A model generated the notes under the pieces. The model was not told the origin of the DNA. It did not search any database and saw nothing but the letters and a program-made list of their open reading frames with translations. A DNA stretch of 64,000 bases, taken from the NCBI GenBank assembly GCA_006738865.1, contig AP019701.1:2166001-2230000 (forward strand), given 5' to 3'. Both the position numbers and the translations under genes were made by a program. How positions within the stretch are numbered: position 1 is the stretch's first letter; each line of letters opens with the position of its first letter. This document shows positions 4,850 to 39,523 of the stretch, in pieces. Origin of the DNA: Allostella sp. ATCC 35155. Lineage in GTDB: Bacteria > Pseudomonadota > Alphaproteobacteria > ATCC43930 > Allostellaceae.

Positions 4850-5500
4850 GTGCGATACATTCTGCCGAGCCTTGCCGACAGGCTCCTGTGGCGGCCCTCC
4901 TTGCGGCACCGGAGCGGGGCGACCTACTTCACGGTTCGGGCCTGGCGAGCCAGTAGCCGGACAACGGACCTCGCGATGCTGAAGGCGGAGAAGAAAGCAA
5001 AGACTCCGAGCGTGATCGCGTTCGCGGCCGCAGACATAGCGGCAGAAATATCAGGACTTCTGGGGGTGCCGGCGGGTTGGACGGTCACATGTGTCGCCCC
5101 GGGACATAGTCGCGAAGACGAGGCATGGAGCACGCTCCTGGCCCGGGCGGTCGCGGCGTGCCTCGCCATACCGTTCGAGCCGCTGTTCAAGCCCCGGCCG
5201 GTGAGCGGCAGCAGCCACCCGCGGCAGAACCTGCACCTCCCGCCCCTGGAATGGGCGGACCGTCCGCGTGGGCCGACGTTGCTGGTGGACGATGTCGCCA
5301 CCAGCGGGTGGCATCTCGCCGAAGGACTCGCGATGCTGCGGGGCGCTGGCATACCCGCCCTAGGGGCAGCCTGGATCGGTGGTACGTCGCAGGAACGGGC
5401 GGAGGAACAGCTGCCCCACCGCCCGGTTACTCACCTTCCGCTCGGCCCCTCCGACCATCTGCCGGATGCGATCCGGAGTGGCTCGGACGTCGGGCAGTAG
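4850..5500 (+). CDS. orphan phosphoribosyltransferase-like protein (ComF-like fold)
   Basis: Up to 216 residues. The diagnostic part is LLVDDVATSGWH (about residues 144-155), a PRPP-binding loop of type I phosphoribosyltransferases, followed by LRGAGIPALGAAWIGG, the usual strand after it. The protein has no zinc-finger cysteines at its N-terminus, so it is not a standard ComF, and no purine or pyrimidine salvage family fits well. The start is uncertain: GTG at 4850 gives the longest product, while an ATG at 4976 (MLKAEKKAK) would still keep the PRTase core. Neither has a good ribosome site. It stands alone between the TRAP operon and an SDR gene. The C-terminal 35 residues look unconserved. 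Its function is unknown. Confidence 0.6.
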   Translation: MRYILPSLADRLLWRPSLRHRSGATYFTVRAWRASSRTTDLAMLKAEKKAKTPSVIAFAAADIAAEISGLLGVPAGWTVTCVAPGHSREDEAWSTLLARAVAACLAIPFEPLFKPRPVSGSSHPRQNLHLPPLEWADRPRGPTLLVDDVATSGWHLAEGLAMLRGAGIPALGAAWIGGTSQERAEEQLPHRPVTHLPLGPSDHLPDAIRSGSDVGQ

Positions 5501-5589
5501 CCGGGCCGGCCCCGTTGCGGACCGGGTCGCCGCCGAGGGATTCCCGCTCGGGGTCGAGCACGGCGATGGCCGTGGCCGACCCGCCGTCC

Positions 5590-6378
5590 TCAGAACGGCC
5601 GGCTGCCGGCGCGGCTGGCCGCCCCGCCATCGACGGCATAGACCACGCCGCTGAGATAGGCCGCGCGCGGCGAGGCGAGGAAGCAGACGAGGTCGGCGAC
5701 CTCCGCGGGCTCCGCGGGCCGTCCTTTCGGCAGGTGCCGGAAATACTCGCGCCAGCGCTCCGGGTCGCCGTGCTCGGCTTCGGCACGCGTGCGCATCAGC
5801 TGGACGATGCGGTCGGTCATGACCGCGCCGGGGTTCACCGCGAGGACGCGCACCCCATAGTCGAGGCTCCAGCTGCCGAGCGCGCGGGTGAAGGCCATCA
5901 GCCCCGCATTGCCGGTGCTGCCGGCAATGTAGCCATAGTCGAAGCGTTCGCCCGCCAGCCCGATGACATTGACGATGACGCCGGCCTGCCGGGCCTTCAT
6001 CCGGGCATGGAAGGCGCGGGTGAGGTTGATGTAGCCGAACACCTTGAGGTCCCAGGCGGCGCGCCAGCGCTCCTCGTCGACCGTGTCGAGGCTGCCGCCC
6101 GGGATGGCGCCGGCATTGTTGACCAGGATGTCGGCATCGCCGCAGAGGTCGGCCAGCCCTTCCGCCGACCCGCGGGCCGCAAGGTCGAGCGGATGGGCCG
6201 CGACCGTCACCTGATGGCGCGAGCGGATCGCGTCGGCGGCTGCCGCCAGCCCGTCGGGGCTGCGGGCGACGAGATGGAGATGGCACCCTTCGGCCGCCAG
6301 CGCCTCGGCGATGGCCCGACCGATCCCCTTGCTTGCGCCGGTCACGACCGCCGTCCGGCCGGTCAGTTGCAGATCCAT
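5590..6378 (-). CDS. SDR-fold protein lacking the canonical catalytic residues
   Basis: A 262-residue Rossmann protein with an intact cofactor site: TGASKGIG at 13-20 and NNAG at 87-90. The catalytic part is abnormal. Where SDR enzymes have YxxxK, residues 153-157 read GSTGN, so both Tyr and Lys are absent, and the upstream catalytic Ser position reads VIG (138-140). The rest of the fold is well kept (VNPGAVMTDR, FLASPRAAYLSG, VDGG), so this is not a decayed gene. The ATG at 6378 follows GGGGAGGAACAG, a strong ribosome site. It is divergent from a FadR-type regulator 69 bp away, which probably controls it. It may bind NAD(P) or a ligand, or use a different chemistry. Confidence 0.85.
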   Translation of the reverse strand: MDLQLTGRTAVVTGASKGIGRAIAEALAAEGCHLHLVARSPDGLAAAADAIRSRHQVTVAAHPLDLAARGSAEGLADLCGDADILVNNAGAIPGGSLDTVDEERWRAAWDLKVFGYINLTRAFHARMKARQAGVIVNVIGLAGERFDYGYIAGSTGNAGLMAFTRALGSWSLDYGVRVLAVNPGAVMTDRIVQLMRTRAEAEHGDPERWREYFRHLPKGRPAEPAEVADLVCFLASPRAAYLSGVVYAVDGGAASRAGSRPF

Positions 6379-6447
6379 TCCTGTTCCTCCCCTTTCGCCG
6401 CGGGCCGTCCGGTGCCTATGATTCGGCCGAGACCCACGACGCATCCC

Positions 6448-7194
6448 ATGGCCGACGCCCGATCATCCCGCGACCCATCGTCCAGCGACCGCACCGACCG
6501 CTCCGAGCAGGATACCACCAGCATCGAGGAGCAGATCGCCCGCGAAATCGAGGAGGACATCATCTTCGGCCGGCTGGAGCCGGGCGCCCGCCTTCGCGAG
6601 GAGCACCTCCACCAGCGGTTCGGCGGCTCGCGCCATTTCGTGCGCCAGGCGCTCGTCCGCCTGGAGCGCGCCGGGATCGTCGTGCGCGAGCGCAACAAGG
6701 GCGCCGCCGTCCGCTCCTTCTCGGCGGGCGAGGTGCTGCAGATCTACGAAGTGCGCGAGATGCTGCAGCGCCAGGCGGCGCTGCGCATCCCGCTGCCGGT
6801 CGCGCCGGAGGCGATCGGCCGCATCGCCGCCATCCATGCCGAGTACGAGCGCTGCGCCGACGCCGGCGACCTCGGCGGGGTGCACGAGGCGAACGACCGG
6901 TTCCACACCGCGCTGTTCGGCCTCTGCGGCAACGAGTACCTGCTGGCCCTGGTCAAGCAGTACATGGACCTGACCTATGCCATCCGCGCCAAGACGCTGG
7001 CCGATCCGGACCAGTTGGAGGTATCGCGCGCCCATCATGCGCTGATGATCGAGTATCTCGGCGGCAATGATCCCTGGGCACTGGCGGAGCTGTGCGTCCA
7101 TCACGTCCGTCCGAGCAAGGACGCGTACCTCCGGCGGATCGCCGGCCGCGAGGGTGGCGCCGGCCGCGTCCGCCGCCTCGGCCGGCGGCGCTGA
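6448..7194 (+). CDS. FadR/GntR-family transcriptional regulator (FCD domain)
   Basis: A 248-residue regulator with a polar N-terminal tail, a winged helix (IEEQIAREIEEDIIFGRL to about residue 90, including RQALVRLERAGIV), and a C-terminal all-helical FCD ligand domain. His residues likely to bind the FCD metal are in NDRFHTALF, RAHHALM and CVHHVRPS. FCD regulators usually sense organic or sugar acids and repress neighbouring catabolic genes. It is divergent from the SDR-like gene and 149 bp upstream of the sugar-acid dehydratase, so both are likely targets. The ATG at 6448 was chosen because the frame upstream of it runs antisense through the SDR gene. Confidence 0.9.
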   Translation: MADARSSRDPSSSDRTDRSEQDTTSIEEQIAREIEEDIIFGRLEPGARLREEHLHQRFGGSRHFVRQALVRLERAGIVVRERNKGAAVRSFSAGEVLQIYEVREMLQRQAALRIPLPVAPEAIGRIAAIHAEYERCADAGDLGGVHEANDRFHTALFGLCGNEYLLALVKQYMDLTYAIRAKTLADPDQLEVSRAHHALMIEYLGGNDPWALAELCVHHVRPSKDAYLRRIAGREGGAGRVRRLGRRR

Positions 7195-7343
7195 CGGCCG
7201 GTGGGCGAGGGCGAATGTCGACAGTGCGTTGCCATCCGGTGCCAATCTTCCGGCTTGGCGCGCCGGATTGTTGACAGGTGGTGCGGCGCTCCGCAGGCTC
7301 CGCAGCCCACTGCCTGGCCCCACTGCCCGAAGAGCCTCCGACC

Positions 7344-9062
7344 ATGAAGAAGACCGGTCTCCGATCGCGCCTGACGAGCTACGGCGACGAGGGCTTCGCG
7401 CTGTATCTCCGCAGTGCCTTCCTGAAGTCGGCCGGCTATGACGACAGCGCGCTGGACCGGCCGATCGTCGGCATCGCCTCGACCGCTTCCGACTTCAACC
7501 CCTGCCATGCGACCGTTCCGAAGCTCGTCGAGGCGGTGTCGCGCGGCATCCGGGATGCGGGCGCCATCCCCTTCGTCTTCCACACCGTCTCGCTGCACGA
7601 ATCCTTCATCCATCCCTCGACGATGATCCTGCGCAACCTGATGGCGATGGACACCGAGGAGATGCTGAAGCGCCAGCCGATCGATGCGGCGGTGCTGATC
7701 GGCGGCTGCGACAAGACGGTGCCGGCCCAGATCATGGGCGCGATCAGCGCGGACATGCCGGCGGTGATGCTCGTCGTCGGCCCGACCGTGACCGGCCGCT
7801 TCGAGAAGGAGCGCCTCGGCGCCTGCTCGGACTGTCGGCGGCTGTGGGCGGCGCACCGGGCGGGGGAGATCGACGACCGCCAACTAGCGGACGCCAACGG
7901 CCGGCTCGTCTCCAGCCACGGCACCTGCACGATCATGGGCACCGCCAGCACCATGGCCGCCATGGCCGAGACGCTGGGGCTGATGCTGACCGGCGGCACC
8001 TCGATCCCGGCGGTGCATTCGGAGCGGCTGCGTCATGCCGAGGCGGCCGGGCGCCGTGCCGCGGAGATGGCGATCGCCGGCGGGCCGCGGCCGAGCGAGA
8101 TCGTGACCGCCGCCTCGCTGCGCAACGCTGCCGTCGTGTTGCAGGCGCTGGGTGGCTCGACCAACTGCATCGTCCATCTCTCGGCGATCGCCGGCCGTAT
8201 GGGCATTCCGCTCGATCTCGACGAGGTCGACCGCATCGGCCGCGAGACGCCGGTGCTGATCGACGTCAAGCCGGTCGGCAAGAACTACATGGAGGATTTC
8301 CATGGCGCGGGCGGGCTGCCGGCGCTGATGAAGCGCCTAGGCGATCGGCTCGACCTTTCGGCCGCGACGGTCTCCGGGCAGACGCTGGGCGAGGCGCTCG
8401 CCGGCGTGTCCGACTGGGTCGACGATCGCATCATCCGGCCGCTCGAAGAGCCGATCCAGCCGGGCGAGGCGCTGTGCATCCTGCGCGGCTCGCTCGCCCC
8501 CGACGGCGCCGTCATCAAGCGTGCCGCGGCGACCGACGCGCTGATGCGCCATCGCGGCCCGGCCCTGGTGTTCGAGACGATCGACGACCTGATGGCGCGC
8601 ATCGACGATCCGGACCTGCCGGTCACGCGCGACCATGTCCTGGTGCTGCGCAACGCCGGCCCGGTCGGAGCGCCGGGCATGCCGGAGGCCGGCGGTATCC
8701 CCATCCCGCGGAAGCTGGCGCGGGACGGCGTCAAGGACATGGTCCGCATCTCCGACGCACGGATGAGCGGCACGGCGTCGGGCTCGATCGTCCTCCATGT
8801 CTCGCCCGAGGCCGCGGTCGGCGGGCCGCTGGCGCTGGTCCGCGACGGCGACATGATCGAGATGGACGTGGCCGGGCGGCGACTCGACCTGATGGTCGAT
8901 GGCGCCGAGCTGGAGCGGCGGCGCGCGGGCTGGGTCCCACCGGCACGGGCGGCGCGCGGCTACGAGAAGCTCTATGTCGACCATGTCATGCAGGCCGACC
9001 GCGGCTGCGACTTCGATTTTCTGCAGGCCGAATCCATGCCGAAGCCGACCCGTCCTGCCTGA
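7344..9062 (+). CDS. IlvD/Edd-family [2Fe-2S] sugar-acid dehydratase
   Basis: A 572-residue dehydratase. Cys54 (FNPCH), Cys122 (GGCDK) and Cys195 (HGTCT) have the same spacing as the cluster ligands I recall for the Rhizobium L-arabinonate dehydratase, and Lys124 sits where that enzyme has a carbamylated, Mg-binding Lys. The C-terminal signature ARMSGTASG is present. The length and the SDC pair near 161-164 place it with pentonate/hexonate dehydratases rather than dihydroxyacid dehydratase of branched-chain synthesis. It would convert a sugar acid to its 2-keto-3-deoxy form. The adjacent FadR gene suggests induction by the sugar acid. The ATG at 7344 fits the family N-terminus; the exact substrate is unknown. 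Confidence 0.9.
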   Translation: MKKTGLRSRLTSYGDEGFALYLRSAFLKSAGYDDSALDRPIVGIASTASDFNPCHATVPKLVEAVSRGIRDAGAIPFVFHTVSLHESFIHPSTMILRNLMAMDTEEMLKRQPIDAAVLIGGCDKTVPAQIMGAISADMPAVMLVVGPTVTGRFEKERLGACSDCRRLWAAHRAGEIDDRQLADANGRLVSSHGTCTIMGTASTMAAMAETLGLMLTGGTSIPAVHSERLRHAEAAGRRAAEMAIAGGPRPSEIVTAASLRNAAVVLQALGGSTNCIVHLSAIAGRMGIPLDLDEVDRIGRETPVLIDVKPVGKNYMEDFHGAGGLPALMKRLGDRLDLSAATVSGQTLGEALAGVSDWVDDRIIRPLEEPIQPGEALCILRGSLAPDGAVIKRAAATDALMRHRGPALVFETIDDLMARIDDPDLPVTRDHVLVLRNAGPVGAPGMPEAGGIPIPRKLARDGVKDMVRISDARMSGTASGSIVLHVSPEAAVGGPLALVRDGDMIEMDVAGRRLDLMVDGAELERRRAGWVPPARAARGYEKLYVDHVMQADRGCDFDFLQAESMPKPTRPA

Positions 9063-19941: not shown

Positions 19942-20210
19942 GCGGTGTCGTCCATCGGCAGGTTCCGGAACTTCCCGGCATCAACGCACGAATCGCGCCC
20001 GGGGTGCCGCGATGATTGACTCTGCCCGCGCGAAGCCAAATCATCACCGGCGAAACGGACGCCCGGGGCATCGTACCCGCGGGCGCGACAGGGAGGAGGG
20101 GCTTTGCAGAAGCCCTGCTCGAGGCCGGTTTGCCGCCCTAGCCCGGATTCCGGGAACGCTCCCCCATTGCCGCCAGCGTCAGCCATCCTTCCCTGGCAGG
20201 AGTGACGGGC

Positions 20211-21500
20211 ATGTCCGCGTCCGACCGCGTTCTCTTCCGAAACGTCCGTGTGATCGACGGGGGCGGCAAGGCGCCCTTCTCCGGCGAGGTGCTGGTCGCC
20301 GGCAACCGCATCGAGGCGGTGTCCCGCCGCGCGGGGACGATCGCCGCCGCGAATGCCGAGGTGGTCGACGGCGACGGGGCGACGCTGATGCCCGGCCTGG
20401 TCGAGGCGCATGCCCATCCGAGCTTCGCCAACACCTCGACCCTGGAGGCGCTGGGCGACATTCCGCCCGAGGAACATACGCTGTTGACGATGAAGCATGT
20501 CCGCCTGCTGCTGGACCACGGCTTCACCAGCATCAGCAGCGCGGCCGCGGCCAAGCCGCGCCTCGACATCGTCATCCGCAACGCCATCCGGGCGGGCGAC
20601 ATTCCCGGTCCCCGCATGCTGGCCGCCTCGCCGGAGATCACGCCGACCAGCGGCCTCGGCGACGTCCGCCTGCACCACATGCACCGCGACACCTTCGCGG
20701 TCGTGGCGGACGGGGCGGACGAGTTCCGGCGGGTCGCGCGGCACTTCGTGCGCGAGGGCGTCGACACGCTCAAGATCAACCCGTCCGGCGACGAGTTCGT
20801 CCCGCATGCCCGGGCGCGCCACACGGTGATGAACGACGACGAGGTGGCGGCGGTTTGCGAGGTGGCGCGCTCGCGCGACAAGCGCGTCGCCGCCCATGCC
20901 CGCAGCGCGGAGTCGGTGAAGATGGCGCTGCGCCACGGCGTCGAGATCATCTTCCACGCCACCCTGTGCGACGAGGAGGCGCTCGATCAGCTGGAGGCCG
21001 CGAAGGACCGCGTCTTCGTCGCCCCGACCGTCGGCGTCACCTGGTCGACGCTGAAGGAGGCGGGGGACTACGGCATCCCGCTGCCGGCCGACGTGCTCCA
21101 TGCGCTGGAGGTCGAACTGGAAGCGGCGGTCGCCGGCATGAAGGCGCTGAAGAAGCGGGGTGTGCGCATCCTGCCCGGCGGCGACTACGGTTTCGCCTGG
21201 AATCCGATCGGCCGCAATGCTCGCGACCTCGAGCATTTCGTGCGCCTGTTCGGATTCACGCCGCTGGAGGCGATCACCGCGGCCACCCGGCATGGCGGTG
21301 AGTTGATGATGCAGGGCGGCGAACTCGGCCAGATCCGCATTGGATACCTCGCCGATCTGCTGCTCGTGGACGGCGACCCGTCGCGCGACGTCTCGATCCT
21401 CCAAGATCGTGACCGGCTGCTCGCCATCATGCTCGACGGTCGGTTCCACAAGCGGCCGCATCCGCGGGCGGCCGCAGCCCGACCGATGGCCGCAGAGTAG
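20211..21500 (+). CDS. metal-dependent amidohydrolase-family protein
   Basis: A 429-residue amidohydrolase-superfamily enzyme. His67/His69 in EAHAHPS are the HxH metal pair after strand 1; LKINPSGDEF carries the possible bridging Lys; AAHARSAESV and EIIFHATL provide further His residues; GGDYGFAW holds the final Asp. The family includes imidazolonepropionase-like and Xaa-Pro dipeptidase (prolidase) enzymes that open amide or lactam bonds. The ATG at 20211 has AGGAG 8-9 nt upstream. It heads a run of genes on one strand that continues with an ABC importer and an IclR regulator, so it probably acts on the imported compound. Confidence 0.88.
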   Translation: MSASDRVLFRNVRVIDGGGKAPFSGEVLVAGNRIEAVSRRAGTIAAANAEVVDGDGATLMPGLVEAHAHPSFANTSTLEALGDIPPEEHTLLTMKHVRLLLDHGFTSISSAAAAKPRLDIVIRNAIRAGDIPGPRMLAASPEITPTSGLGDVRLHHMHRDTFAVVADGADEFRRVARHFVREGVDTLKINPSGDEFVPHARARHTVMNDDEVAAVCEVARSRDKRVAAHARSAESVKMALRHGVEIIFHATLCDEEALDQLEAAKDRVFVAPTVGVTWSTLKEAGDYGIPLPADVLHALEVELEAAVAGMKALKKRGVRILPGGDYGFAWNPIGRNARDLEHFVRLFGFTPLEAITAATRHGGELMMQGGELGQIRIGYLADLLLVDGDPSRDVSILQDRDRLLAIMLDGRFHKRPHPRAAAARPMAAE

Positions 21501-21513
21501 CGACCAGCTCGTA

Positions 21514-21543
21514 TTGACTTGGGGAAGTGGCGCCGGCAATACT
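21514..21543 (+). promoter_or_regulatory. sigma70-like promoter candidate before the livK homologue
   Basis: TTGACT (21514-21519) and AATACT (21538-21543) are separated by 18 nt. The -35 hexamer is 5/6 of the consensus; the -10 is weaker. It lies directly upstream of the palindrome at 21562-21578, which would then cover the early transcribed region. Confidence 0.4.
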
Positions 21544-21561
21544 TTCAAGGGTCGGGACTAG

Positions 21562-21578
21562 TTTTCGTAATACGAAAA
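21562..21578. promoter_or_regulatory. perfect 8-bp inverted repeat, candidate IclR-family operator
   Basis: TTTTCGTA and TACGAAAA flank a single A. It is 51 bp upstream of the ABC binding-protein start and just after the promoter candidate. Its AT-rich arms stand out in this G+C-rich DNA. Opposed TTCG/CGAA half sites are typical of operators bound by IclR-family regulators (PcaU/PobR type), and an IclR-family gene is two genes downstream at 22836. Confidence 0.55.
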
Positions 21579-21628
21579 ACTACGGCGAGAAGGAAAAATC
21601 CTCCGCCGAACCCACGGGGAGAAACGTC

Positions 21629-22822
21629 ATGAAGCGAAGCCTGCTCCTGTCGCTCGCGGCCGTCGGTGCGGTGGCGTACCCGCTGGCTGCGATCGCCGCC
21701 GATCCCATCCGGGTCGGCTATCCAATGATCCTGTCGGGGCCGGGCGCCCTGTTCGGCGAGCCGTCGCTGAAGGGCGCGCAAATGTATGTCGACGAGGTCA
21801 ACGCCAAGGGCGGCGTGCTCGGTCGCAAGATCGAGCTGATCTCGCGCGACACCCGCGGCAGCGCCGACGAGGCGGTGCGGGTCACCCGCGACCTCATCCT
21901 GCGCGACGACGTCCAGTTCATCGTCGGCACGCTGACTTCGGCCGAAGGCCCGGCCGTGTCCCCGATCGCGCGGGAGAACCAGATCGTCTTCATCGCGCCG
22001 ATCACCAAGACCGACCAGCTGACGGCGCCGGCCAACCTTCATCCCTACGTCTTCCGGACGGCGTCGACGACGACCATCGAGGGCCGCTCGGCGGCGGAGA
22101 TCGTCGCCAAGTGGAACGTCAAGCGCATCGGCACGATCAGCCCCGACTACGCCTATGGGCAGGACGCGACCAAGGCCTTCATCGAGCATTTGAAGAAGAT
22201 CAAGCCCGACGTCGAGATCGTCGACCAGCAATGGCCGAAGCTGGGCGAGGCCGACTACACGCCGTTCATCAACGCCCAGATGGGCAAGAAGCCCGAGGCC
22301 GTGTTCTCCTCGCTCTGGGGTGGGCACTTCGTGACCTTCGCCAAGCAGGCGGTGCCGCTCGGCTACTTCAAGGCCCTGAACCACAACTTCGTCGGCGCCG
22401 GCGAGGCCGGGTCGATCGAAAGCGCGAAGGCGATGGGTCCCGACTACCCGGTCGGCATCTGGAGCAACACCTACGACCTGTTCGACTGGCCCGCCGGCCC
22501 GCCCGCGCACAAGGCCTATATCGACCGACTGAAGGCCTACACGAAGCAGGAGTACCCGTCCTCCTGGCCGATCACCGGCTACATCTCCATGCAGTTCCTC
22601 GTCGAAGCGATCCGCAAGGCGGGCAGCGTCGAGTCCGACAAGGTCTCGAAGGCGCTGCTGGGTCTCAGCATCGACACGCCGATCGGCAAGCAGACGATCC
22701 GCGCCAAGGACCACCAGGCCAATCGCGGCCAGTTCTGGGGCAAGATGAAGATGGACCCGAAGTATCCCTTCGCGGTCATGGAGAACGTGACCTACATCGA
22801 TCCCGCGCCGTTCATGGACTGA
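21629..22822 (+). CDS. branched-chain amino acid-type ABC transporter substrate-binding protein (LivK family)
   Basis: A 397-residue periplasmic binding protein with a Sec leader (MKRSLLLSLAAVGAVAYPLAAIAA). The two lobes show typical motifs: GPGALFGEPSLKGAQMYVDEVNAKGG, RDLILRDDVQFIVGTLTSAEG and the cleft-spanning TISPDYAYGQDATKAF. Members bind amino acids, amides, aromatic acids or other small acids. GGGGAGAAAC precedes the ATG. It is followed by the regulator and the rest of the transporter, so the system is complete. The substrate may well not be an amino acid, given the amidohydrolase, tautomerase and lactonase around it. Confidence 0.93.
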   Translation: MKRSLLLSLAAVGAVAYPLAAIAADPIRVGYPMILSGPGALFGEPSLKGAQMYVDEVNAKGGVLGRKIELISRDTRGSADEAVRVTRDLILRDDVQFIVGTLTSAEGPAVSPIARENQIVFIAPITKTDQLTAPANLHPYVFRTASTTTIEGRSAAEIVAKWNVKRIGTISPDYAYGQDATKAFIEHLKKIKPDVEIVDQQWPKLGEADYTPFINAQMGKKPEAVFSSLWGGHFVTFAKQAVPLGYFKALNHNFVGAGEAGSIESAKAMGPDYPVGIWSNTYDLFDWPAGPPAHKAYIDRLKAYTKQEYPSSWPITGYISMQFLVEAIRKAGSVESDKVSKALLGLSIDTPIGKQTIRAKDHQANRGQFWGKMKMDPKYPFAVMENVTYIDPAPFMD

Positions 22823-22835
22823 GGGCGGACGCCCG

Positions 22836-23615
22836 ATGAACGAGTCCGTCGGAGAGACGGCGGACGGCACGGTCAAGAGCGTCGCCAAGGTGCTGGACCT
22901 CCTCGAGCACCTTGGCGCCGCGCGCCAGCCCGTCGGCATCTCCGATCTGGCGCGCGCGACCGGCCTGCATGTCTCGACCGCCCACCGCCTGCTGCGCACC
23001 CTGGTCTGCCGCGGCTTCGTCGAACAGCGGCGCGACAGCCGGCGATACGCGCTGGGCCCGCGGGTCCACGCCCTGGGCGGGGCCTATCTCGGCGGCAGCG
23101 ACATCGTCGGTGCGGCCTACCCCGTGATCGACGAGCTGCGCGACCGGCTGGGGGAGACGATCCACGTCGCCGTCTGGGACGACGGCTCGGTGCTGGAGGT
23201 CTGCCACGCGGAAACCACCCAGCCGGTCGGCGTCTCGCTCCGGCTCGGGCGCCGCGATCCGGCCCACGCGACGGCGATCGGCAAGGTGCTGCTGGCGTGG
23301 CGCGAACCGCTCGATCTGGAGGCCTTCCTCGCCCGGGCGCCGCTGGCCGCGGTCACCCGGCGCACCATCACCGAGGAGGGAGCGCTGCGCGCGGAACTGG
23401 AGCGCGTGCGCGCGCGGGACTTCGCCATCGACGAGGGGGAACTGGCCGAGGGGCTGTGCTGCGTCGGCGTGCCCATCCGCAACCGGCGCGGCTTCGTGGT
23501 CGCCGGCCTCAGCGTCGCCATGCCGGCGGGGCGTTTCGATCCCGCGCGGATCCCGGAATGGGCGGCGGCGCTGCATCGCGCGGCGCAACGCCTGTCCGAC
23601 CGGCTGGCCTGCTGA
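22836..23615 (+). CDS. IclR-family transcriptional regulator
   Basis: A 259-residue regulator: winged helix at about residues 12-75 (VAKVLDLLEHLG, ISDLARATGLHVSTAHRLLRTL) and a GAF-like IclR effector domain (SLRLGRRDPAHATAIGKVLLA, GLCCVGVPIRNRRG, AGLSVAMPAGRF). It sits within the transport gene run, 13 bp after livK, and so probably controls the operon it belongs to, responding to the imported substrate or a product. The palindrome at 21562-21578 is a plausible binding site. Confidence 0.92.
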   Translation: MNESVGETADGTVKSVAKVLDLLEHLGAARQPVGISDLARATGLHVSTAHRLLRTLVCRGFVEQRRDSRRYALGPRVHALGGAYLGGSDIVGAAYPVIDELRDRLGETIHVAVWDDGSVLEVCHAETTQPVGVSLRLGRRDPAHATAIGKVLLAWREPLDLEAFLARAPLAAVTRRTITEEGALRAELERVRARDFAIDEGELAEGLCCVGVPIRNRRGFVVAGLSVAMPAGRFDPARIPEWAAALHRAAQRLSDRLAC

Positions 23616-23627
23616 TCGGAAGCGGCG

Positions 23628-24515
23628 ATGCCGGAACCATCCTTCATCTTCGGCCAGTTCGTCGGCGGCCTCACCGCCAGCATGTTCCTGTTCGTCACCG
23701 CGGTCGGCCTGTCGCTGATCTTCGGCGTCCTGCGCGTGCTGAACTTCGCCCACGGCTCGCTCTACATGCTGGGTGCCTATCTGGCCTGGCAGATCATGAA
23801 CTGGCTCGGTCCGGGGCCCGAGCATTTCTGGCTCGCCGCGCTCGGCTCGGCCGTCGTCGTCGCCGGCATCGGGGCTGCGATCGAGCGCCTGCTCTTCCGC
23901 CACCTCTACGGCCGCGAGGAGCTGTACCAGCTGCTCTTCACCTATGCGCTGGTCCTGGTGCTGGCCGACGTCTGCAAGATCGTCTGGGGAACGCAGCAGC
24001 TGTCCGTGTCGCGGCCGCTCAGCCTGTCGGGCGGGACGACCATCTTCGGAACGCTGGTGCCGCACTACAACCTCTTCATCATCGTGCTGGGACCGGCGCT
24101 GGCGCTCGCCCTGTGGCTCCTCCTGCACCGCTCGCCGGCGGGCCGGATCATCCGGGCGGCCGTCCTCGACCGCGAGATGCTGGGCGCACTGGGCGCCAAT
24201 GTCGGTTGGATCTACACCGGCATGTTCGCCCTCGGCGCATTCCTGGCCGGCCTCGGCGGCGCCCTCGTCACCCCGGTCAAGACGATCGTCCCCGGCATGG
24301 ACGTCGAGGTCATCGTCGAGGTCTTCATCATCGTCGTCATCGGCGGCCTGGGATCGATGTGGGGCACCTTCCTCGGGGCCGTCGTCTTCGGGCAGGTCCT
24401 GGCCTTCGGCATCCTGCTGATGCCGCGCTTCTCGATCTTCTCGGTCTTCGCCCTGATGGCGATCATCCTGATCGTGCGCCCGTGGGGCCTCCTCGGGCGG
24501 CGGCTGACGCGATGA
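23628..24515 (+). CDS. branched-chain-type ABC transporter permease (LivH family)
   Basis: A 295-residue integral membrane protein with the LivH pattern: LSLIFGVLRVLNFAHGSLYMLGAY near the N-terminus, GALGANVGWIYTGMFALGAFLAGLGGAL in the middle and VIGGLGSMWGTFLGAVVFGQ, the loop that meets the ATPases. It forms the channel with the LivM-type permease. It starts 12 bp after the regulator gene and ends 10 bp before the next permease. Confidence 0.94.
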   Translation: MPEPSFIFGQFVGGLTASMFLFVTAVGLSLIFGVLRVLNFAHGSLYMLGAYLAWQIMNWLGPGPEHFWLAALGSAVVVAGIGAAIERLLFRHLYGREELYQLLFTYALVLVLADVCKIVWGTQQLSVSRPLSLSGGTTIFGTLVPHYNLFIIVLGPALALALWLLLHRSPAGRIIRAAVLDREMLGALGANVGWIYTGMFALGAFLAGLGGALVTPVKTIVPGMDVEVIVEVFIIVVIGGLGSMWGTFLGAVVFGQVLAFGILLMPRFSIFSVFALMAIILIVRPWGLLGRRLTR

Positions 24516-24525
24516 GGCGGGCCGG

Positions 24526-25515
24526 ATGAAGCGGATTCCCTGGACCCTCGTCGTCTTCGCCGTGGCGTTCTTCGTGCCCTGGCTCGGCTCGCGCTTCTAC
24601 ACCTTCATCGCCACCGACGTCGCGATCCTGGCGCTCTTCGCACTCAGCCTCAACCTGCTGCTCGGCTATACCGGCCTCGTCTCCTTCGGGCACGCGGCCT
24701 ATTTCGGCATCGGCGCCTATACCTCGGCCATCATGATGAAGACGCTGGGCCTGCCCTTCTGGCTGGCCTGGCCGGCGGCCGGCCTCGCGGGCGGGCTGTT
24801 CGCCCTGGTCTTCGGCTTCTTCTGCGTGCGGCTGACGAAGATCTATTTCGCGATGCTGACGCTGGCCTTCGCGCAGATCGTCTGGGCCGTCTGCTTCAAG
24901 TGGAACGACGTCACCGGCGGCGAGCAGGGCATGCCCAACGTGCCTTATCCGTCGCTCGGCTGGATGGCGGCGATCCCCGGCCTCGACGGCTTCCGGGTCG
25001 GCGACCGCTTCTATCTGCTGACGCTGACGCTCGTCGCCATCGCGGTCGCCGCGCTGCGGCGGATCGTGGCCTCGCCCTTCGGCCGCATCCTGACCCTGAT
25101 CCGCGAGAACCCGGAGCGGGCGGAGTTCATCGGCATCGACGTCCGCCGCTACCAGCTCGCGGCCTTCTCGATCGCCGGGATCTTCGCCGGGCTGGCCGGC
25201 TCGCTCTTCGGCATCTTCAATCGCGGGGTGTTCCCGGACTTCGCCTACTGGACCAAGTCGGCGGAGGTGCTGATCATGACGATCCTCGGCGGCATGGGCC
25301 ATTTCTGGGGACCGGCCGTGGGGGCGGCGGCGCTCACCATCCTCAACCTGCAGATCACCGCCTACACCGAGTACTGGCCCCTCATTCTCGGCAGCATCCT
25401 GATCCTGCTCCTCTTCGCCTTTCCCGGCGGCCTCGTCGGCACCACGGTCGATCTCGCCCGCCGTCTCCGCGGCGGAACGCGCGGCAATGGGGGGCGCGAT
25501 GCTCGACGTCCGTGA
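24526..25515 (+). CDS. branched-chain-type ABC transporter permease (LivM family)
   Basis: A 329-residue permease with LLGYTGLVSFGHAAYFGIGAYTSA, AMLTLAFAQIVWAV, the cytoplasmic ENPERAEFIGIDVRRYQLAAFSIAGIFAGLAGSLFG and the ATPase-contact loop ILGGMGHFWGPAVGA. It makes the second half of the channel. Its last residues, Arg/Gly-rich, overlap the beginning of the following ATPase gene by 17 bp, so these genes are translated from one message. Confidence 0.94.
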   Translation: MKRIPWTLVVFAVAFFVPWLGSRFYTFIATDVAILALFALSLNLLLGYTGLVSFGHAAYFGIGAYTSAIMMKTLGLPFWLAWPAAGLAGGLFALVFGFFCVRLTKIYFAMLTLAFAQIVWAVCFKWNDVTGGEQGMPNVPYPSLGWMAAIPGLDGFRVGDRFYLLTLTLVAIAVAALRRIVASPFGRILTLIRENPERAEFIGIDVRRYQLAAFSIAGIFAGLAGSLFGIFNRGVFPDFAYWTKSAEVLIMTILGGMGHFWGPAVGAAALTILNLQITAYTEYWPLILGSILILLLFAFPGGLVGTTVDLARRLRGGTRGNGGRDARRP

Positions 25516-26233
25516 CCTCAAGAAGTCGTTCGCCGGCTTCCTCGCCGTCGCCGACGTCACCTTCTCGCTGCTGCCGCGGTCGGTGACGGCGATCATCGGG
25601 CCGAACGGGGCGGGCAAGTCGACCCTGTTCAACCTCATCACCGGGCATATTCCGCCGTCGGGCGGGCAGGTCTTCCACAAGGGGACGGATATCACCGCGG
25701 CGGCGCCGCATCGCATCTGCCGCCGCGGCATCGGCCGGTCCTTCCAGCACACCAACATCTTCCCCGGACTGACCGTGTTCGAATGCATCCAGGCGGCCTT
25801 CATCGCCCATCACGGGCGCGGCCGGAACATCTGGGGGCGGGCCGAGCGGCTCTACCGGGCGGAGACCGACGCGCTGCTCGGGCGACTGGGACTGGCCGAC
25901 AAGGCGGACGCGGTGGCCGGCGCGCTTTCGCACGGCAATCAGAAGCAGATCGAGCTCGGCATCGCGTTGGCGAGCGACCCCGACATCCTGCTCCTGGACG
26001 AGCCGACGGCCGGCATGTCGGCGGTCGAGACGCGCGAGACGATCGGGCTGCTGCGCTCGATCACCGAAGAGCGCGGCCTGACGCTGCTCTTCACCGAGCA
26101 TGACATGGAGGTGGTATTCGGCATCGCCGAGCGCATCGGCGTGCTCCACCAGGGCCGGCTCATCGCCCTCGGGACGCCGGACCAGATCCGGGCCGACCCC
26201 GAGGTCCGGCGCATCTATCTGGGCGGCCACTGA
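25499..26233 (+). CDS. branched-chain-type ABC transporter ATP-binding protein (LivG family)
   Basis: A 244-residue ATPase with Walker A GPNGAGKST, a LivG-type loop (GIGRSFQHTNIFPGLTVFE), a signature region LSHGNQKQIELGIAL in place of LSGGQ, Walker B ILLLDEPTAGMS and the switch His in FTEHDMEVV. The length and the C-terminal IRADPEVRRIYLGG are LivG-like. The ATG at 25499 gives the usual MLDVRDL start; an ATG at 25487 would add four residues. Its TGATG end overlaps the next start. Confidence 0.94.
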   Translation: MLDVRDLKKSFAGFLAVADVTFSLLPRSVTAIIGPNGAGKSTLFNLITGHIPPSGGQVFHKGTDITAAAPHRICRRGIGRSFQHTNIFPGLTVFECIQAAFIAHHGRGRNIWGRAERLYRAETDALLGRLGLADKADAVAGALSHGNQKQIELGIALASDPDILLLDEPTAGMSAVETRETIGLLRSITEERGLTLLFTEHDMEVVFGIAERIGVLHQGRLIALGTPDQIRADPEVRRIYLGGH

Positions 26234-26940
26234 TGGCAAGCCTGCTCGAGGTTCGCGACCTGCATACGGCCTACGGCCTCTCGCAGGTCCTGTTCGGGGT
26301 GTCGCTGGAGATCCAGGCCGGCGAATGCGTCTGCCTGCTGGGGCGGAACGGCGTCGGCAAGTCGACGACGATCCGGTCGATCATGGGCCTGACCCGGCCA
26401 AGCCGCGGCGAGGTCCGCTGGAAGGGCGGCAGCATCCTTGGCTGGCCGCCGTTCCGGGTCGCGCGAGCCGGCATCGGCTTCGTGCCGGAGGATCGCCGGG
26501 TCTTCGCCGACCTCACGGTCCGGGAGAACCTGGACGTCGCGCGGCAGGTCTCCCGCCGGCCCGGCGAGTGGACGGCGGAGGCCGTCTTCGAACTCTTTCC
26601 GCCGCTCCGGCCGATCGCCGGGCGGCGTGCCGGATACCTGTCGGGCGGCGAGCAGCAGATGCTGACCATCGGCCGCACCCTCATGGGCAACCCGGAGCTG
26701 CTGCTGCTCGACGAGCCGTCGGAGGGGCTGGCGCCGCTCGTCGTCGAGCACCTGCTGGAGCAGGTGACGGCGCTGAAGCGGCGCGGCCTGACGATCCTGC
26801 TGGCCGAGCAGGGCATCGCCTTCTCGCTGCAGCTTGCCGACCGGGTCTATGTGCTGGAGAAGGGGACCGTCCGCTTCTCGGGGGCGGCGGCCGAACTGCG
26901 CGAAGACGAAGCGCTCCGCGACCGCCTGCTCGCCCTTTGA
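26233..26940 (+). CDS. branched-chain-type ABC transporter ATP-binding protein (LivF family)
   Basis: A 235-residue ATPase with Walker A GRNGVGKST, the LivF loop GIGFVPEDRRVFADLTVRENLD, signature YLSGGEQQMLTIGRTLM, Walker B LLLLDEPSEGLAP and LAEQGIAFSL. It pairs with the LivG-type ATPase to power the importer. Its start shares one base with the previous stop (TGATG), the tightest coupling in the operon. Confidence 0.94.
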   Translation: MASLLEVRDLHTAYGLSQVLFGVSLEIQAGECVCLLGRNGVGKSTTIRSIMGLTRPSRGEVRWKGGSILGWPPFRVARAGIGFVPEDRRVFADLTVRENLDVARQVSRRPGEWTAEAVFELFPPLRPIAGRRAGYLSGGEQQMLTIGRTLMGNPELLLLDEPSEGLAPLVVEHLLEQVTALKRRGLTILLAEQGIAFSLQLADRVYVLEKGTVRFSGAAAELREDEALRDRLLAL

Positions 26941-26971: not shown

Positions 26972-27172
26972 ATGCCGTTCGTCAACATCCGCATCGTCGA
27001 GGGCCACTCGCCCGCCCGCAAGGACGAGATGGCCCGCCGTATCGCCGCCACCATCTCGGAGGTCGCAGAGGTTCCGCAGGAGGCGATCTGGGTCGTCTTC
27101 GAGGACGTGAAGGCCGACGAATGGTACGTCGGCGCGGATTCCGTGGCGGTCCTGCGCGCCAGGGCCGGGTGA
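26972..27172 (+). CDS. 4-oxalocrotonate tautomerase-family protein
   Basis: A 66-residue protein beginning Met-Pro (MPFVNIRIVEGHS); removal of Met exposes the catalytic N-terminal Pro. The rest (KDEMARRIAATISEVAEVPQEAIWVVFEDV) fits the short tautomerase fold, which assembles as hexamers. Typical reactions are keto-enol shifts in aromatic-ring catabolism. Its place between the importer and the SMP-30 gene suggests a catabolic step on the transported compound. GGGAG lies 7 nt before the ATG. It is somewhat longer than the 60-62 residues of classical 4-OT. Confidence 0.9.
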   Translation: MPFVNIRIVEGHSPARKDEMARRIAATISEVAEVPQEAIWVVFEDVKADEWYVGADSVAVLRARAG

Positions 27173-27174
27173 CG

Positions 27175-28065
27175 ATGTCGGTCGATATCCGCGATCCGCG
27201 AATGGCGGCCGTCGTCGGCGGCGCCGTGCGCTTCGACAAGATCGCCGGCGACTGCCTCTTCACCGAAGGCCCGCTGTGGCATCCGGGCGGCCGCTACCTG
27301 CTCTTCAGCGACATGCCGGGCGACCATCTGCGCCGCTGGAGCGAGGCCGAGGGCGTCACGACCTTCCGCAAGCCCTGCAACCAGTCGAACGGGCTGGCCT
27401 GGGACCGCGAGGGCCGGCTCCTGGCCTGCGAGCACGCGACGAGCCGGGTGACGCGGACCGAGGCGGACGGCACGATCACGGTGCTGGCGAGCCACCATGA
27501 GGGCAGGGAACTCAACAGTCCGAACGACCTCGTGGTGAAGCGCGACGGGGCGATCTATTTCAGCGATCCGACCTACGGCCGGGCGGAATATTACGGCCGG
27601 CCGCGGCCGACGGAACTCGACTTCCGTGGCGTGTTCCGCATCGCGCCGGACGGCGGATTGCGCCTGCTGGCTGACGATTTCGCCCAGCCGAACGGCCTGT
27701 GCTTCTCGGCCGACGAGCGCCGCCTCTTCGTCAACGACACCGACCGCCAGCACATCCGCGTGTTCGACGTCGCCGCCGACGGCTCGCTGTCCGGCGGCAG
27801 GGTGTGGGCGGAGACGCGGGGCGAGGGGCCCGGCGCCCCGGACGGGATGAAGATGGACTCCGCCGGCAACCTCTATTGCTGCGGACCGGGCGGCATCCAT
27901 GTCTTCGCGCCGGATGCCGCCTGCCTGGGCGTCATCCGGGTGCCGGAATATGCCGCGAATTTCTGCTGGGGCGACGACGACCGCAAGAGCCTGTTCGTCA
28001 CGGCCTCGACCTCGGTCTACCGCATCCGTCTGGCCGCGCCCGGGACTTCGCAGTTCTTGGACTGA
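27175..28065 (+). CDS. SMP-30/gluconolactonase-family protein
   Basis: A 296-residue six-bladed propeller. The metal-binding Glu of strand 1 is in FTEGPLWHP, the Asn ligand in SPNDLVVKRDGAIYFSDPTYG, another Asn in QPNGLCFSADERRLFVNDT and the Asp in GAPDGMKMDSAGNLYCCGPGG. Members hydrolyse sugar or other lactones. It starts 2 bp after the tautomerase stop, so it belongs to the same message. It closes the 20211-28065 block and abuts, tail to tail, the histidine kinase gene. Confidence 0.91.
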   Translation: MSVDIRDPRMAAVVGGAVRFDKIAGDCLFTEGPLWHPGGRYLLFSDMPGDHLRRWSEAEGVTTFRKPCNQSNGLAWDREGRLLACEHATSRVTRTEADGTITVLASHHEGRELNSPNDLVVKRDGAIYFSDPTYGRAEYYGRPRPTELDFRGVFRIAPDGGLRLLADDFAQPNGLCFSADERRLFVNDTDRQHIRVFDVAADGSLSGGRVWAETRGEGPGAPDGMKMDSAGNLYCCGPGGIHVFAPDAACLGVIRVPEYAANFCWGDDDRKSLFVTASTSVYRIRLAAPGTSQFLD

Positions 28066-36726: not shown

Positions 36727-37980
36727 CTAGTCCATCTGGGGGGCGTGCATCCGTCCGGTGGAGGTCATCCGGGCGATCCGGACGAAGGCCGCTACGGCGC
36801 CAACTCCGATCGCGCAAGTGACGCCCAACGCGGCCAGCACGCCGAACTTTTCCATGACGAACGCGAATGCGAAGGGAGCGCTGGCCGACACGATCAGCCG
36901 GATGGCGGCGATGCGGCCGGTGAGGTCGCCATAGCCTCTCCGGCCGAACAGGGCGAGGGGCAGCGTGCCCTGGACAATGCTGCCGAGACCCGAGCCGAGG
37001 CCGAAGACGACCGAGAACATGACGGCTCCCGGCACCCAGGGGGCCGATATCATCAGCGTTGCGACGGCAAGCGGCTCGAACAGCGCGGCGACGACGGCGA
37101 GTGCCGGTGCGCTCAGCCTGCCGCCGAAGACCATGTTGGTGAGGCGGCTGGCAACCTGGGCGGGACCGAACAGGGCGCCGACCAGCACGCCCGTTGCGCC
37201 CAGTCCCAGCGCGCCGAGGAGCGGCAGCATGTGGACCAGGATGGCGGCATTGACGAAGCTGAGGAGCGAGAACCCGGCCGCCATGAGCAGGAAGAGCGAA
37301 CTCCGCTTCGCGGTGCTGCGGTCGCCCGCCGAGGCAGGGGCCGCGGCGGCCGTGCCTGCCGGGTCTGCATCGCCGGCACCCGATCGCGCCACTGTCGAAA
37401 GCCAAGCGTGGATCGGCAAGCACACGAGAAGATGGACAGAAGCAAACAGAAAATAGACCTCGCGCCACGTCAGCACCTGATGCAGTGCCGTAGTGATCGG
37501 CCATAGCAGCGTCGAGGCGAAGCCGCCGATCAGCGTCAGGTAGGTGATGTTGCGCGGTGCGCGCTCATGGTCGATCTGTACCAGCAGGGCAAAAGCCGCG
37601 GTGTACTGCACGAAGGTCGAAGCGACCTCGATTGCCACGAGACCCAGCAGGAAGATCGCAATGTTCGGCGAGAGTGCGGCACCCGCCAGTGCCAGAGCGG
37701 CCGCGACCGACCCGAGCGCCATGACCCGGCCGGCACCATGGCGGTCGCTCCAACGCCCTGCCCACGGCGCGGCCAGACCGCCGGCGAGGAGGGCGACCGA
37801 CAATGCGCCGAAAATCCATTCCGTCGACCAATCGAGGTCCTTCGCGATGCTCGGCGCGAGGACGCTGAAGGCATAGTAGAGCGTGCCATAGCCGATGATC
37901 TGGCTGAGGCCCAATGCGGCCACGACCAGGCGATGGTCGACGCGTCCCGGACCGCGCCGCAGCGGCACAGGGCTCACCAC
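36727..37980 (-). CDS. MFS transporter, possibly an arsenite-type efflux pump
   Basis: About 417 residues with 12 predicted helices. The N-terminal half starts VVAALGLSQIIGYGTLYYAFSVLAPSIA and carries the MFS loop GRWSDRHGAGRVMALG. A polar segment (about 190-215) joins the halves. It lies downstream of an ArsR gene on the same strand, separated by an operator-like palindrome at 38176-38199, so metalloid or other toxic-compound efflux (ArsK-like) is the simplest idea. The start is uncertain: a GTG at 37980 or 37977 fits the first helix, while an upstream TTG at 38187 would place the start inside the palindrome and add 69 Pro/Arg-rich residues. The substrate is unproven. Confidence 0.82.
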   Translation of the reverse strand: MVSPVPLRRGPGRVDHRLVVAALGLSQIIGYGTLYYAFSVLAPSIAKDLDWSTEWIFGALSVALLAGGLAAPWAGRWSDRHGAGRVMALGSVAAALALAGAALSPNIAIFLLGLVAIEVASTFVQYTAAFALLVQIDHERAPRNITYLTLIGGFASTLLWPITTALHQVLTWREVYFLFASVHLLVCLPIHAWLSTVARSGAGDADPAGTAAAAPASAGDRSTAKRSSLFLLMAAGFSLLSFVNAAILVHMLPLLGALGLGATGVLVGALFGPAQVASRLTNMVFGGRLSAPALAVVAALFEPLAVATLMISAPWVPGAVMFSVVFGLGSGLGSIVQGTLPLALFGRRGYGDLTGRIAAIRLIVSASAPFAFAFVMEKFGVLAALGVTCAIGVGAVAAFVRIARMTSTGRMHAPQMD

Positions 37981-38175
37981 GACCGCGGGCGGAGTCGGCC
38001 GTTCGTCGCCGTGTCCGCCAGCCCCGGGCGCGGTCGCTGGCAGAAGCCATGTCGCTCTGCGCCCACCCGGGCGAACCTTTCGCCCCCAGGGACGTCCGGG
38101 ATTGTCATTCGGCGATTCCCTTGGGAGTTGGGATGCGGCGCGAGGAGCGCGGGGCTGCCCCGGTGGCGATATTCC

Positions 38176-38199
38176 ATATTTCCGCAATAACAGAAATAT
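38176..38199. promoter_or_regulatory. ATATTTC/GAAATAT inverted repeat, candidate ArsR operator
   Basis: ATATTTC (38176-38182) and GAAATAT (38193-38199) are perfect inverted arms with a 10-nt spacer. It lies between the ArsR stop (38218) and the MFS start (about 37980). AT-rich imperfect dyads of this kind are usual sites for ArsR/SmtB repressors. The placement means it would repress the MFS gene from its own promoter rather than arsR. Confidence 0.5.
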
Positions 38200-38217: not shown

Positions 38218-38547
38218 TCAATCTTCGACGCCGATGCCTCCGCCTGACGGCGCGTCGGCGCAGCACTCGGCCACGAGGAACGCGATCAGCGCCTCCATCG
38301 CGGGATAGTTGGCCCGGCAGATCAGCGTCGTCGCATGGCGCTCCTGGGCGACCAGCCGCATGGCGATCAGCCGGCGGAGGTGATGCGACAGGGTCGAGGC
38401 GGCAATTCCCAGCTGCTCCTGAAGCCGGCCGACGGGCAGTCCGGCATCGCCGGCCCGCACCAGGTTGCGGTAGATGCGCAGCCGTGTCGGGTTGCCCAGC
38501 GCCTCGAGCTGGGCGGCCGCCTGGTCGATCATCATGAACGTGGACAT
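38218..38547 (-). CDS. arsR: ArsR-family transcriptional regulator with C-terminal Cys pair
   Basis: A 109-residue winged-helix protein: LEALGNPTRLRIYRNLVRAG, GRLQEQLGIAASTLSHHLRRL (recognition helix) and LVAQERHATTLICRANY. It lacks the CxC motif of the E. coli-type ArsR alpha3 helix. It has Cys77 and a Cys95-Cys96 pair (AECCADA) near the end, like the C-terminal As(III) site I recall from Acidithiobacillus ferrooxidans ArsR (Cys95, Cys96, Cys102). That supports metalloid sensing. ATG 38547 fits the family length; the open frame upstream is not conserved. It would repress the downstream MFS gene. Confidence 0.85.
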   Translation of the reverse strand: MSTFMMIDQAAAQLEALGNPTRLRIYRNLVRAGDAGLPVGRLQEQLGIAASTLSHHLRRLIAMRLVAQERHATTLICRANYPAMEALIAFLVAECCADAPSGGGIGVED

Positions 38548-38716
38548 GCCGCGGTCCGGCGGAACGATCAATATCCATCTCCGCTTCAACAGGGCCGGAA
38601 TCGCTTTTCGGCGCGCGGATTGCGTACGGGCCGTCTCCAGCATGACATGTATTCGGTTGCCCCCCTGCGCGCATGACGCTAGGGATCGGACAGGCCGAAC
38701 ACCATTGGAGGTTCCG

Positions 38717-39523
38717 ATGCGCCGCACGCTTCTCGCCCTCACGGTCCTTGCCGCCGCCGCCCTGCCGGGCGCCGCCGCGGCCGACGTCATCGACAAGATC
38801 AAGGAGCGCGGGACGCTCGTCGTCGGCGTCAAGACCGACTACAAGCCCTTCGGCTTCCGCAATCCGTCGGGTGCCATCATCGGCATCGAGCCCGACATGG
38901 CGGCCGAAGTCGCCAAGAAGCTCGGGGTCAAGCTGGAACTCGTGTCGGTCGTCTCCGCCAACCGCATGGAATTCCTGCGCCAGGGCAAGATCGACCTGAT
39001 GATCGCCACGATGTCCGACAAGCCGGAGCGCCGGAAGGTCGTCCAGGTGGTCGAGCCGCTCTATTATTCCGACGCCGTCAACGTGCTCCTGTCCGACAAG
39101 GTCAAGGTGACGAAGTGGGAGCAGCTCAAGGGCGCCAAGCTCTGCGGCACCACCGGCGCCTTCTACAACAAGGACGTCGCGGCGAAGTACGGCGCCGAGA
39201 TCGTCTCGTTCGACGGCTCGGAGAAGCCGCTGATCGCGCTCAAGCAGGGCAACTGCATCGGCTATCTCTACGACCAGACCTTCATCGCCGGGAAGCTGCT
39301 CGATGACGACTGGAAGAAGGGCTACCACATGCCGCTCGAGGGGATCATGGAGACGCCCTGGGCGATCGCCGTGGCCCCGGGCGAGGACCGTCTCGCCAAG
39401 CTCATGAGCGACCTCACCAAGGAGTGGATGAAGGCCGGCTACATCGTCGCGCTCGAGAAGAAGTGGGGTGTCAAGCCGACCGAGTATTCCGTGCGGATGC
39501 ACAAGGAATACAAGGGCTCCTGA
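38717..39523 (+). CDS. polar amino acid-type ABC transporter substrate-binding protein
   Basis: A 268-residue SBP with a clear Sec leader (MRRTLLALTVLAAAALPGAAAA). Mature motifs: LVVGVKTDYKPFGFRN, GIEPDMAAEVAKKLGVKLELV, FLRQGKIDLMIATMSDKPERR, GTTGAFYNKDVA and a C-terminal WMKAGYIVALEKKWGVKPTEY. Lys- and Asp-rich surface. Two Cys (LCGTTG, GNCIGY) may form a disulfide. The ATG has TTGGAGG 5 nt upstream, one of the strongest ribosome sites in the window. First gene of a second complete polar amino acid importer. Confidence 0.93.
   Translation: MRRTLLALTVLAAAALPGAAAADVIDKIKERGTLVVGVKTDYKPFGFRNPSGAIIGIEPDMAAEVAKKLGVKLELVSVVSANRMEFLRQGKIDLMIATMSDKPERRKVVQVVEPLYYSDAVNVLLSDKVKVTKWEQLKGAKLCGTTGAFYNKDVAAKYGAEIVSFDGSEKPLIALKQGNCIGYLYDQTFIAGKLLDDDWKKGYHMPLEGIMETPWAIAVAPGEDRLAKLMSDLTKEWMKAGYIVALEKKWGVKPTEYSVRMHKEYKGS

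Follow-up and report, generated by a model that had tools for sequence, protein, structure and literature searches.

A locus in the genome of Allostella sp. ATCC 35155 raises the question of whether an uptake operon beginning with livK is controlled by a regulator that it encodes itself. The window analysed here is a stretch of 64,000 nucleotides of this genome, in which a palindromic sequence lies between promoter-like elements and livK (Table 1). A sequence-only reading had proposed that this dyad is the operator of an IclR-family protein encoded in the same operon, that feedback control is likely, and that the motif could be used to find the other targets of the regulator. Here, computation was used to locate the promoter-like elements and the site, to compare the site with the family consensus, and to see whether it is conserved and occurs together with the operon. 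The interpretation of the locus as the promoter and IclR-type operator of a locally autoregulated uptake operon is well supported by sequence. More specifically, the second gene of the operon codes for an IclR-family protein, and the dyad is probably the operator through which this protein exerts local autorepression.

Table 1. Features of the promoter region and operon (positions are those of the window).
Feature	Position	Strand	Remarks
Sigma-70-type promoter (predicted)	21514..21543	+	-35 TTGACT 21514-21519, 18-nt spacer, -10 AATACT 21538-21543
Candidate weaker tandem site CTTTCAAGGGTCGGGAC	21542..21558	.	Centre exactly 20 nt upstream of dyad centre
Putative operator dyad TTTTCGTA-A-TACGAAAA	21562..21578	.	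IclR group 1 subgroup iii consensus 17/17
Leader hairpin (predicted) CGGCGAGAAGGAAAAATCCTCCGCCG	21583..21608	+	Between putative operator and ribosome-binding region
livK, periplasmic substrate-binding protein, first gene of operon	21629..22822	+	Pfam PF13458, E 7.9e-74
iclR-family regulator, presumed dyad binder	22836..23615	+	Pfam PF01614, PF09339
livH, livM, livG, livF (two permeases, two ATPases)	23628..26940	+	livH PF02653
Tautomerase-like gene	26972-27172	+	PF01361/PF08450 scan of gene pair; start by eye
SMP-30/gluconolactonase-like gene	from about 27175 (operon part 26972..28065)	+	Start by eye

The operon and its iclR gene

The iclR gene begins 13 nt behind livK, in agreement with the proposal that it lies downstream in the same operon. 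It is followed by livH, livM, livG and livF, the last three of which were named by eye from their translations, and the order of these four genes is kept in both of the relatives described below. The tautomerase-like and SMP-30/gluconolactonase-like genes match PF01361 and PF08450, are syntenic in both relatives, and are likely to form the end of the operon.

Both domains of the regulator score well above their curated cut-offs (HTH_IclR, 64 bits against 22; IclR_C, 151.9 bits against 24). In NCBIfam, the regulator scores under the cut-off of all eight models listed. Among solved structures, the nearest chains are 1mkm, from an IclR regulator of Thermotoga, and 1ysp (KdgR).

Directly upstream of the promoter there is an amidohydrolase gene (window 20202-21500). 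Because it is conserved in both relatives, at 87–88% identity, it may belong to the same pathway as the operon.

Distribution and gene order in related species

The name Allostella was proposed in 2025 for the genus of the window (PMC12488387); the name Stella, that of a genus of star-shaped bacteria, is kept here. The genus sample consists of four genomes, within an order of 43. Of the other three congeners, two (G385 and G387) have orthologs of the regulator, with 77–79% identity. A scan of named genome contigs found one close relative only, Stella vacuolata ATCC 43931 (AP019702.1), in which the regulator has 77% identity and a single locus; this locus and that of G387 are one and the same place. 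The remaining congener, G386, is a draft of about 570 contigs in which there is no close match, the best regulator having 40% identity and the best LivK 34%. All other matches to the regulator in the order (E 1e-30) have 31–40% identity.

In the class sample, none of the other 384 genomes has an ortholog of the regulator at E 1e-50. In the phylum sample, six of the other 397 genomes have matches at E 1e-44, all with 36–37% identity. Since the class and phylum searches scored no more than six candidates per genome, one that ranked lower at first look may have escaped them. A search of plasmids at E 1e-25 yielded 110 matching records, all with less than 60% identity among the matches listed (20 of the 110). 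None of the phylum or plasmid matches was taken as an ortholog.

Eleven genes were tested for synteny, and their order and orientation are the same in both relatives: these are the endonuclease-like, amidohydrolase, livK, iclR, livH, livM, livG, livF, tautomerase, SMP-30-like lactonase and histidine-kinase-like genes, the first and last of which were named by eye from their translations.

The promoter

A promoter scan of a 461-nt region found one candidate, with 9 of 12 matches, against a mean of 0.1 in shuffled sequences. The -35 element TTGACT is identical in all three species that have the operon. The -10 element is AATAAT in both relatives, and is therefore identical to that of the window at five of six columns. 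The spacer is 18 nt long in all three species, with only 5 of its 18 columns identical. The TTGACT promoter that had been proposed ahead of the dyad is thus supported, since the -35 element, the spacing and most of the -10 element are kept. The expected start of transcription is near position 21550, some 7 nt behind the -10 element.

The dyad and its conservation

The dyad stands where it had been described, behind the TTGACT promoter and before livK, and it is perfect: two arms of 8 bp, 100% complementary, are separated by a 1-nt spacer. There are 50 nt between the dyad and the ATG of livK (21629), which places the dyad centre at -59. A search of the window allowing up to three mismatches gives this single match, with 0 expected from 100 dinucleotide shuffles. 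Perfect 8-bp dyads as such are common: with spacers of 0–5 nt there are 32 in this GC-rich window (nested registers of one palindrome each being counted), of which three have a 1-nt spacer. The dyad is by far the most AT-rich of the 32, with a G+C content of 4/17, the next lowest being 10/21. Because 44 of 5000 shuffles of the 128-nt intergenic region contain a perfect dyad of such size, the dyad is, from the window alone, unlikely by chance but not decisive. A third half-site overlapping the -35 element (TCGTATT, 21509-21515) was considered and rejected, as it is absent from both relatives.

The orthologous sites in G385 and G387 are identical to each other, both being TTTCCGCAATACGAAAA. The three species thus give two distinct site sequences, and the independent evidence is correspondingly small. 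The alignment shows identity at 15 of the 17 columns. Both differences are in the left arm, with no change in the right arm, and because of these two substitutions the sites of the relatives are imperfect dyads. The perfect symmetry is not a conserved property: among the three species it is particular to that of the window. The sequence-only reading had held that the dyad should be found in orthologous operons. The site is indeed present in both of the two operons found, but the dyad is imperfect there.

Fit to the IclR consensus

In a comparative study that covered 1340 regulators of the IclR family, the main motif is divided into four variants (PMC8222616, Suvorova & Gelfand 2021). Variant iii of group 1 (WTT-11-AAW) is given there as WTTYCRYW3RYGRAAW (PMC8222616). 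The 17-mer of the window agrees with this consensus at 17 of 17 positions, and so do both orthologous sites. In the rest of the window the top score is 14 of 17, and 16 places score 13 or 14. Both of the substitutions between species sit at Y positions, where the consensus allows either base. Because a random substitution would keep the consensus about one time in four (a hand estimate, with transitions as half of the changes), two substitutions of this kind are weak evidence by themselves.

In the comparative study, most sites are located at -20 to -80 from the gene start, a zone that includes the dyad centre. IclR regulators are there said to act, as a rule, on the gene that encodes them and on one or two operons next to it, and liv transporter genes are listed among the predicted members of IclR-family regulons (PMC8222616). 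The dyad is therefore like the operators of IclR group 1 subgroup iii in being an odd dyad of 17 bp, in matching all 17 consensus positions, in the position of its centre, and in having the regulator gene within the operon. It differs in that its regulator is without a close ortholog outside Stella in the samples searched, and in that this particular dyad is not a box shared in the class sample (see below). The 17/17 fit in three species, and the co-occurrence of the site with an operon that contains iclR, argue for the proposed IclR-type operator.

Comparison with individual members of the family shows both likeness and difference. The operators of PcaU, PcaR and PobR have TTCGAT-like cores (PMC8222616, Table 1). 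Like the dyad, they are palindromes with a TTCG half-site; the inner bases are GTA/TAC in the dyad and GAT/ATC in these operators, and the outer positions are A/T in the dyad and G/C in the others. With the PcaR/PcaU/PobR model TIGR02431 the regulator scores 192.1 bits, under the cut-off of 284.75, and is not assigned to that subfamily. E. coli IclR and gammaproteobacterial KdgR belong to the same protein family as the regulator and act on short dyads. Their operators, TGGAAATNATTTCCA and RWWGAAACGNCGTTTCAKKA respectively (PMC8222616), have half-sites different from those of the dyad, and the regulator is far below both equivalog cut-offs. A search of the literature with the exact half-sites as text returned no IclR operator by title among the matches listed.

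It should be considered whether a different protein uses the site. The genome contains four other strong full-length matches to HTH_IclR and nine weaker ones, and use of the dyad by another IclR protein is less likely than use by the regulator of the operon itself. A protein from another family, such as one of GntR/FadR type, is a very unlikely user. The general GntR/FadR pattern, NyGTM-N0-1-KACNr, does also fit the sequence cGTA-A-TACg in the window, and GntR domains are not scarce in the genome, with 30 matches over the cut-off, two of them in one frame. However, in both relatives the GT core of the left half is changed to GC (CGCA), a change that leaves the IclR consensus unbroken. In addition, there is no GntR match inside the operon, whereas iclR is part of it, and the one GntR gene of the window (5125-7194, domain 6529-6711) is about 15 kb away. 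This gene lies beside an SDR-like oxidoreductase frame (5590-6444, minus strand) and a dehydratase-like frame (7278-9062), both named by eye. We therefore retain the regulator encoded in the operon as the probable binder of the dyad.

The leader and a candidate tandem site

Between the dyad and the ribosome-binding region there is a predicted hairpin, of which 24 of the 26 columns are identical in the three species; the other two columns form one pair, which changes from G-C to A-U. The stretch between the hairpin and the ATG is identical at 18 of 20 columns. Conservation therefore covers the whole stretch from the dyad to the ATG and not the dyad alone, and this counts against the dyad as an operator. 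It could be argued that the conserved element is mainly a leader RNA, consisting of the hairpin and the ribosome-binding region, and that the dyad is a chance symmetry within it. In conservation the hairpin equals or surpasses the dyad, and it also folds well by itself: for a 34-nt piece that was picked by eye, the fold is far better than those of shuffled sequences (z -4.46). One of its pairs is kept by a two-sided change, and in the predicted fold of the window the dyad also forms a hairpin.

Against this, the predicted folds of both relatives contain no local hairpin at the dyad, and their full 83-nt leaders fold no better than shuffled sequences (z 0.79 and 0.36). The 83-nt leader of the window folds moderately better (z -1.56, with 13 of 200 shuffles as good). 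The covariation concerns a single pair, seen in three sequences, and as much is attained by 190 of 500 shuffles. Moreover, a leader RNA would make a coincidence of the fit to the IclR consensus, which occurs at one place per genome. That the dyad is only a chance symmetry within a leader is thus highly improbable, and we prefer to regard it as an operator with a separate hairpin behind it. The hairpin may have a role of its own, message stability and translation control of the binding protein being the plain options. Each of the three genomes that have the operon contains a single exact copy of its 19-nt core, which is absent from G386; in G385 there is one further match with three mismatches. 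In Rfam there is no match at the position of the hairpin up to E 1. A match elsewhere in the 601-nt stretch is far below the gathering score and was taken as chance.

On the other side of the dyad, the sequence CTTTCAAGGGTCGGGAC overlaps the end of the -10 element and the predicted transcription start. In the comparative study, 94 of the 181 groups of regulators have tandem sites at a distance of 18–22 nt (PMC8222616). Binding as a tetramer is possible for IclR proteins. The consensus scores of CTTTCAAGGGTCGGGAC in the three species are 9, 12 and 11 of 17. Because the mean of these scores is equalled or exceeded in 269 of 5000 column shuffles, a second operator site at this place is suggestive only. 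A more elaborate arrangement can be drawn from these features, in which a genus-restricted regulator with one genomic operator would bind as a tetramer at 21550 and 21570 and clamp the -10 element and the start, with the hairpin adding a layer of control at the level of the RNA. We regard this arrangement as doubtful.

Search for further targets

The exact degenerate 17-letter consensus occurs at one place each in the genomes of the window, G385 and G387, and this is always the site described here; in the G386 genome there are no matches. As a control, the reversed pattern gives no matches in any of the four genomes. Allowing one mismatch adds one further place in the four genomes, which is in the genome of the window, against one for the control, in G387. 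An open frame of 429 aa, ATPase-like by eye, contains this place (G000:C1:1595446-1595462). A genome-wide search with a 15-mer and up to two mismatches gives one other place (G000:C1:5179146-5179160), and the reversed-pattern control also gives one; the place was rejected as a further target, the count being not above the control. In the class sample, TTTCGTANTACGAAA is found in 2 of 385 genomes, one of which is that of the window, and the control pattern in 6 of 385. The dyad was accordingly rejected as a box shared across the class.

The suggestion that the motif would lead to the other targets of the regulator is thus not borne out. There is no second exact match to the consensus in the genome, and the scan for similar dyads returned only the match in a coding frame and a count equal to its control. 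With one such site in the genome, the motif does not open the way to a larger regulon.

It is worth adding that an AT-rich patch of the window, ATTCCATATTTCCGCAATAACAGAAATAT (38171-38199), has two overlapping matches to the IclR consensus at 14 of 17 positions. It lies between a transporter-like frame (36727-38187, minus strand, start uncertain) and an ArsR-like regulator frame (38218-38832, minus strand), both named by eye, and is possibly the site of another regulator.

Proposed circuit

We infer that the regulator binds the dyad and represses the operon, and that a ligand relieves the repression. A dimer of the regulator would cover roughly +12 to +28, just behind the transcription start, and when bound would block the promoter of livK-iclR-livHMGF-tautomerase-lactonase. 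The imported compound, or a product of it, would then bind to the C-terminal domain of the regulator and relieve repression. To judge from the binding protein, tautomerase and lactonase of the operon, the ligand may be a small organic acid, or else a lactone or aromatic breakdown product. Because iclR is inside the operon that it would control, the result would be a local negative feedback loop. The feedback control proposed earlier is in this way supported as probable autoregulation, by a site that fits the consensus and co-occurs with the iclR operon.

Judged by the position of the site, repression is the likeliest sign of the regulator, because a dimer behind the start would hinder the polymerase. 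The regulator could in principle bind the dyad and activate, as its PobR- and PcaU-type relatives can. These proteins are activators, and the regulator does score with their model, though below its cut-off. Activators generally bind upstream of the -35 element, however, and the dyad is behind the predicted start, where a bound protein hinders the polymerase. Activation is therefore unlikely, even though the family as described holds both activators and repressors (PMC8222616), and we take repression as the working model.

The circuit is ordinary control of a known kind and no new kind of system. Its interest lies elsewhere. It offers a testable circuit of one operator and one operon in the genus Stella, for which no regulatory study was found among the literature matches listed. 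It adds to the published degenerate IclR consensus an independent example with agreement at all positions. It also illustrates how the perfect symmetry of a conspicuous dyad can be exceptional, confined to one species, while what is kept is a looser consensus. Finally, once the ligand is known, the promoter and its regulator would be a candidate for a compact sensor.
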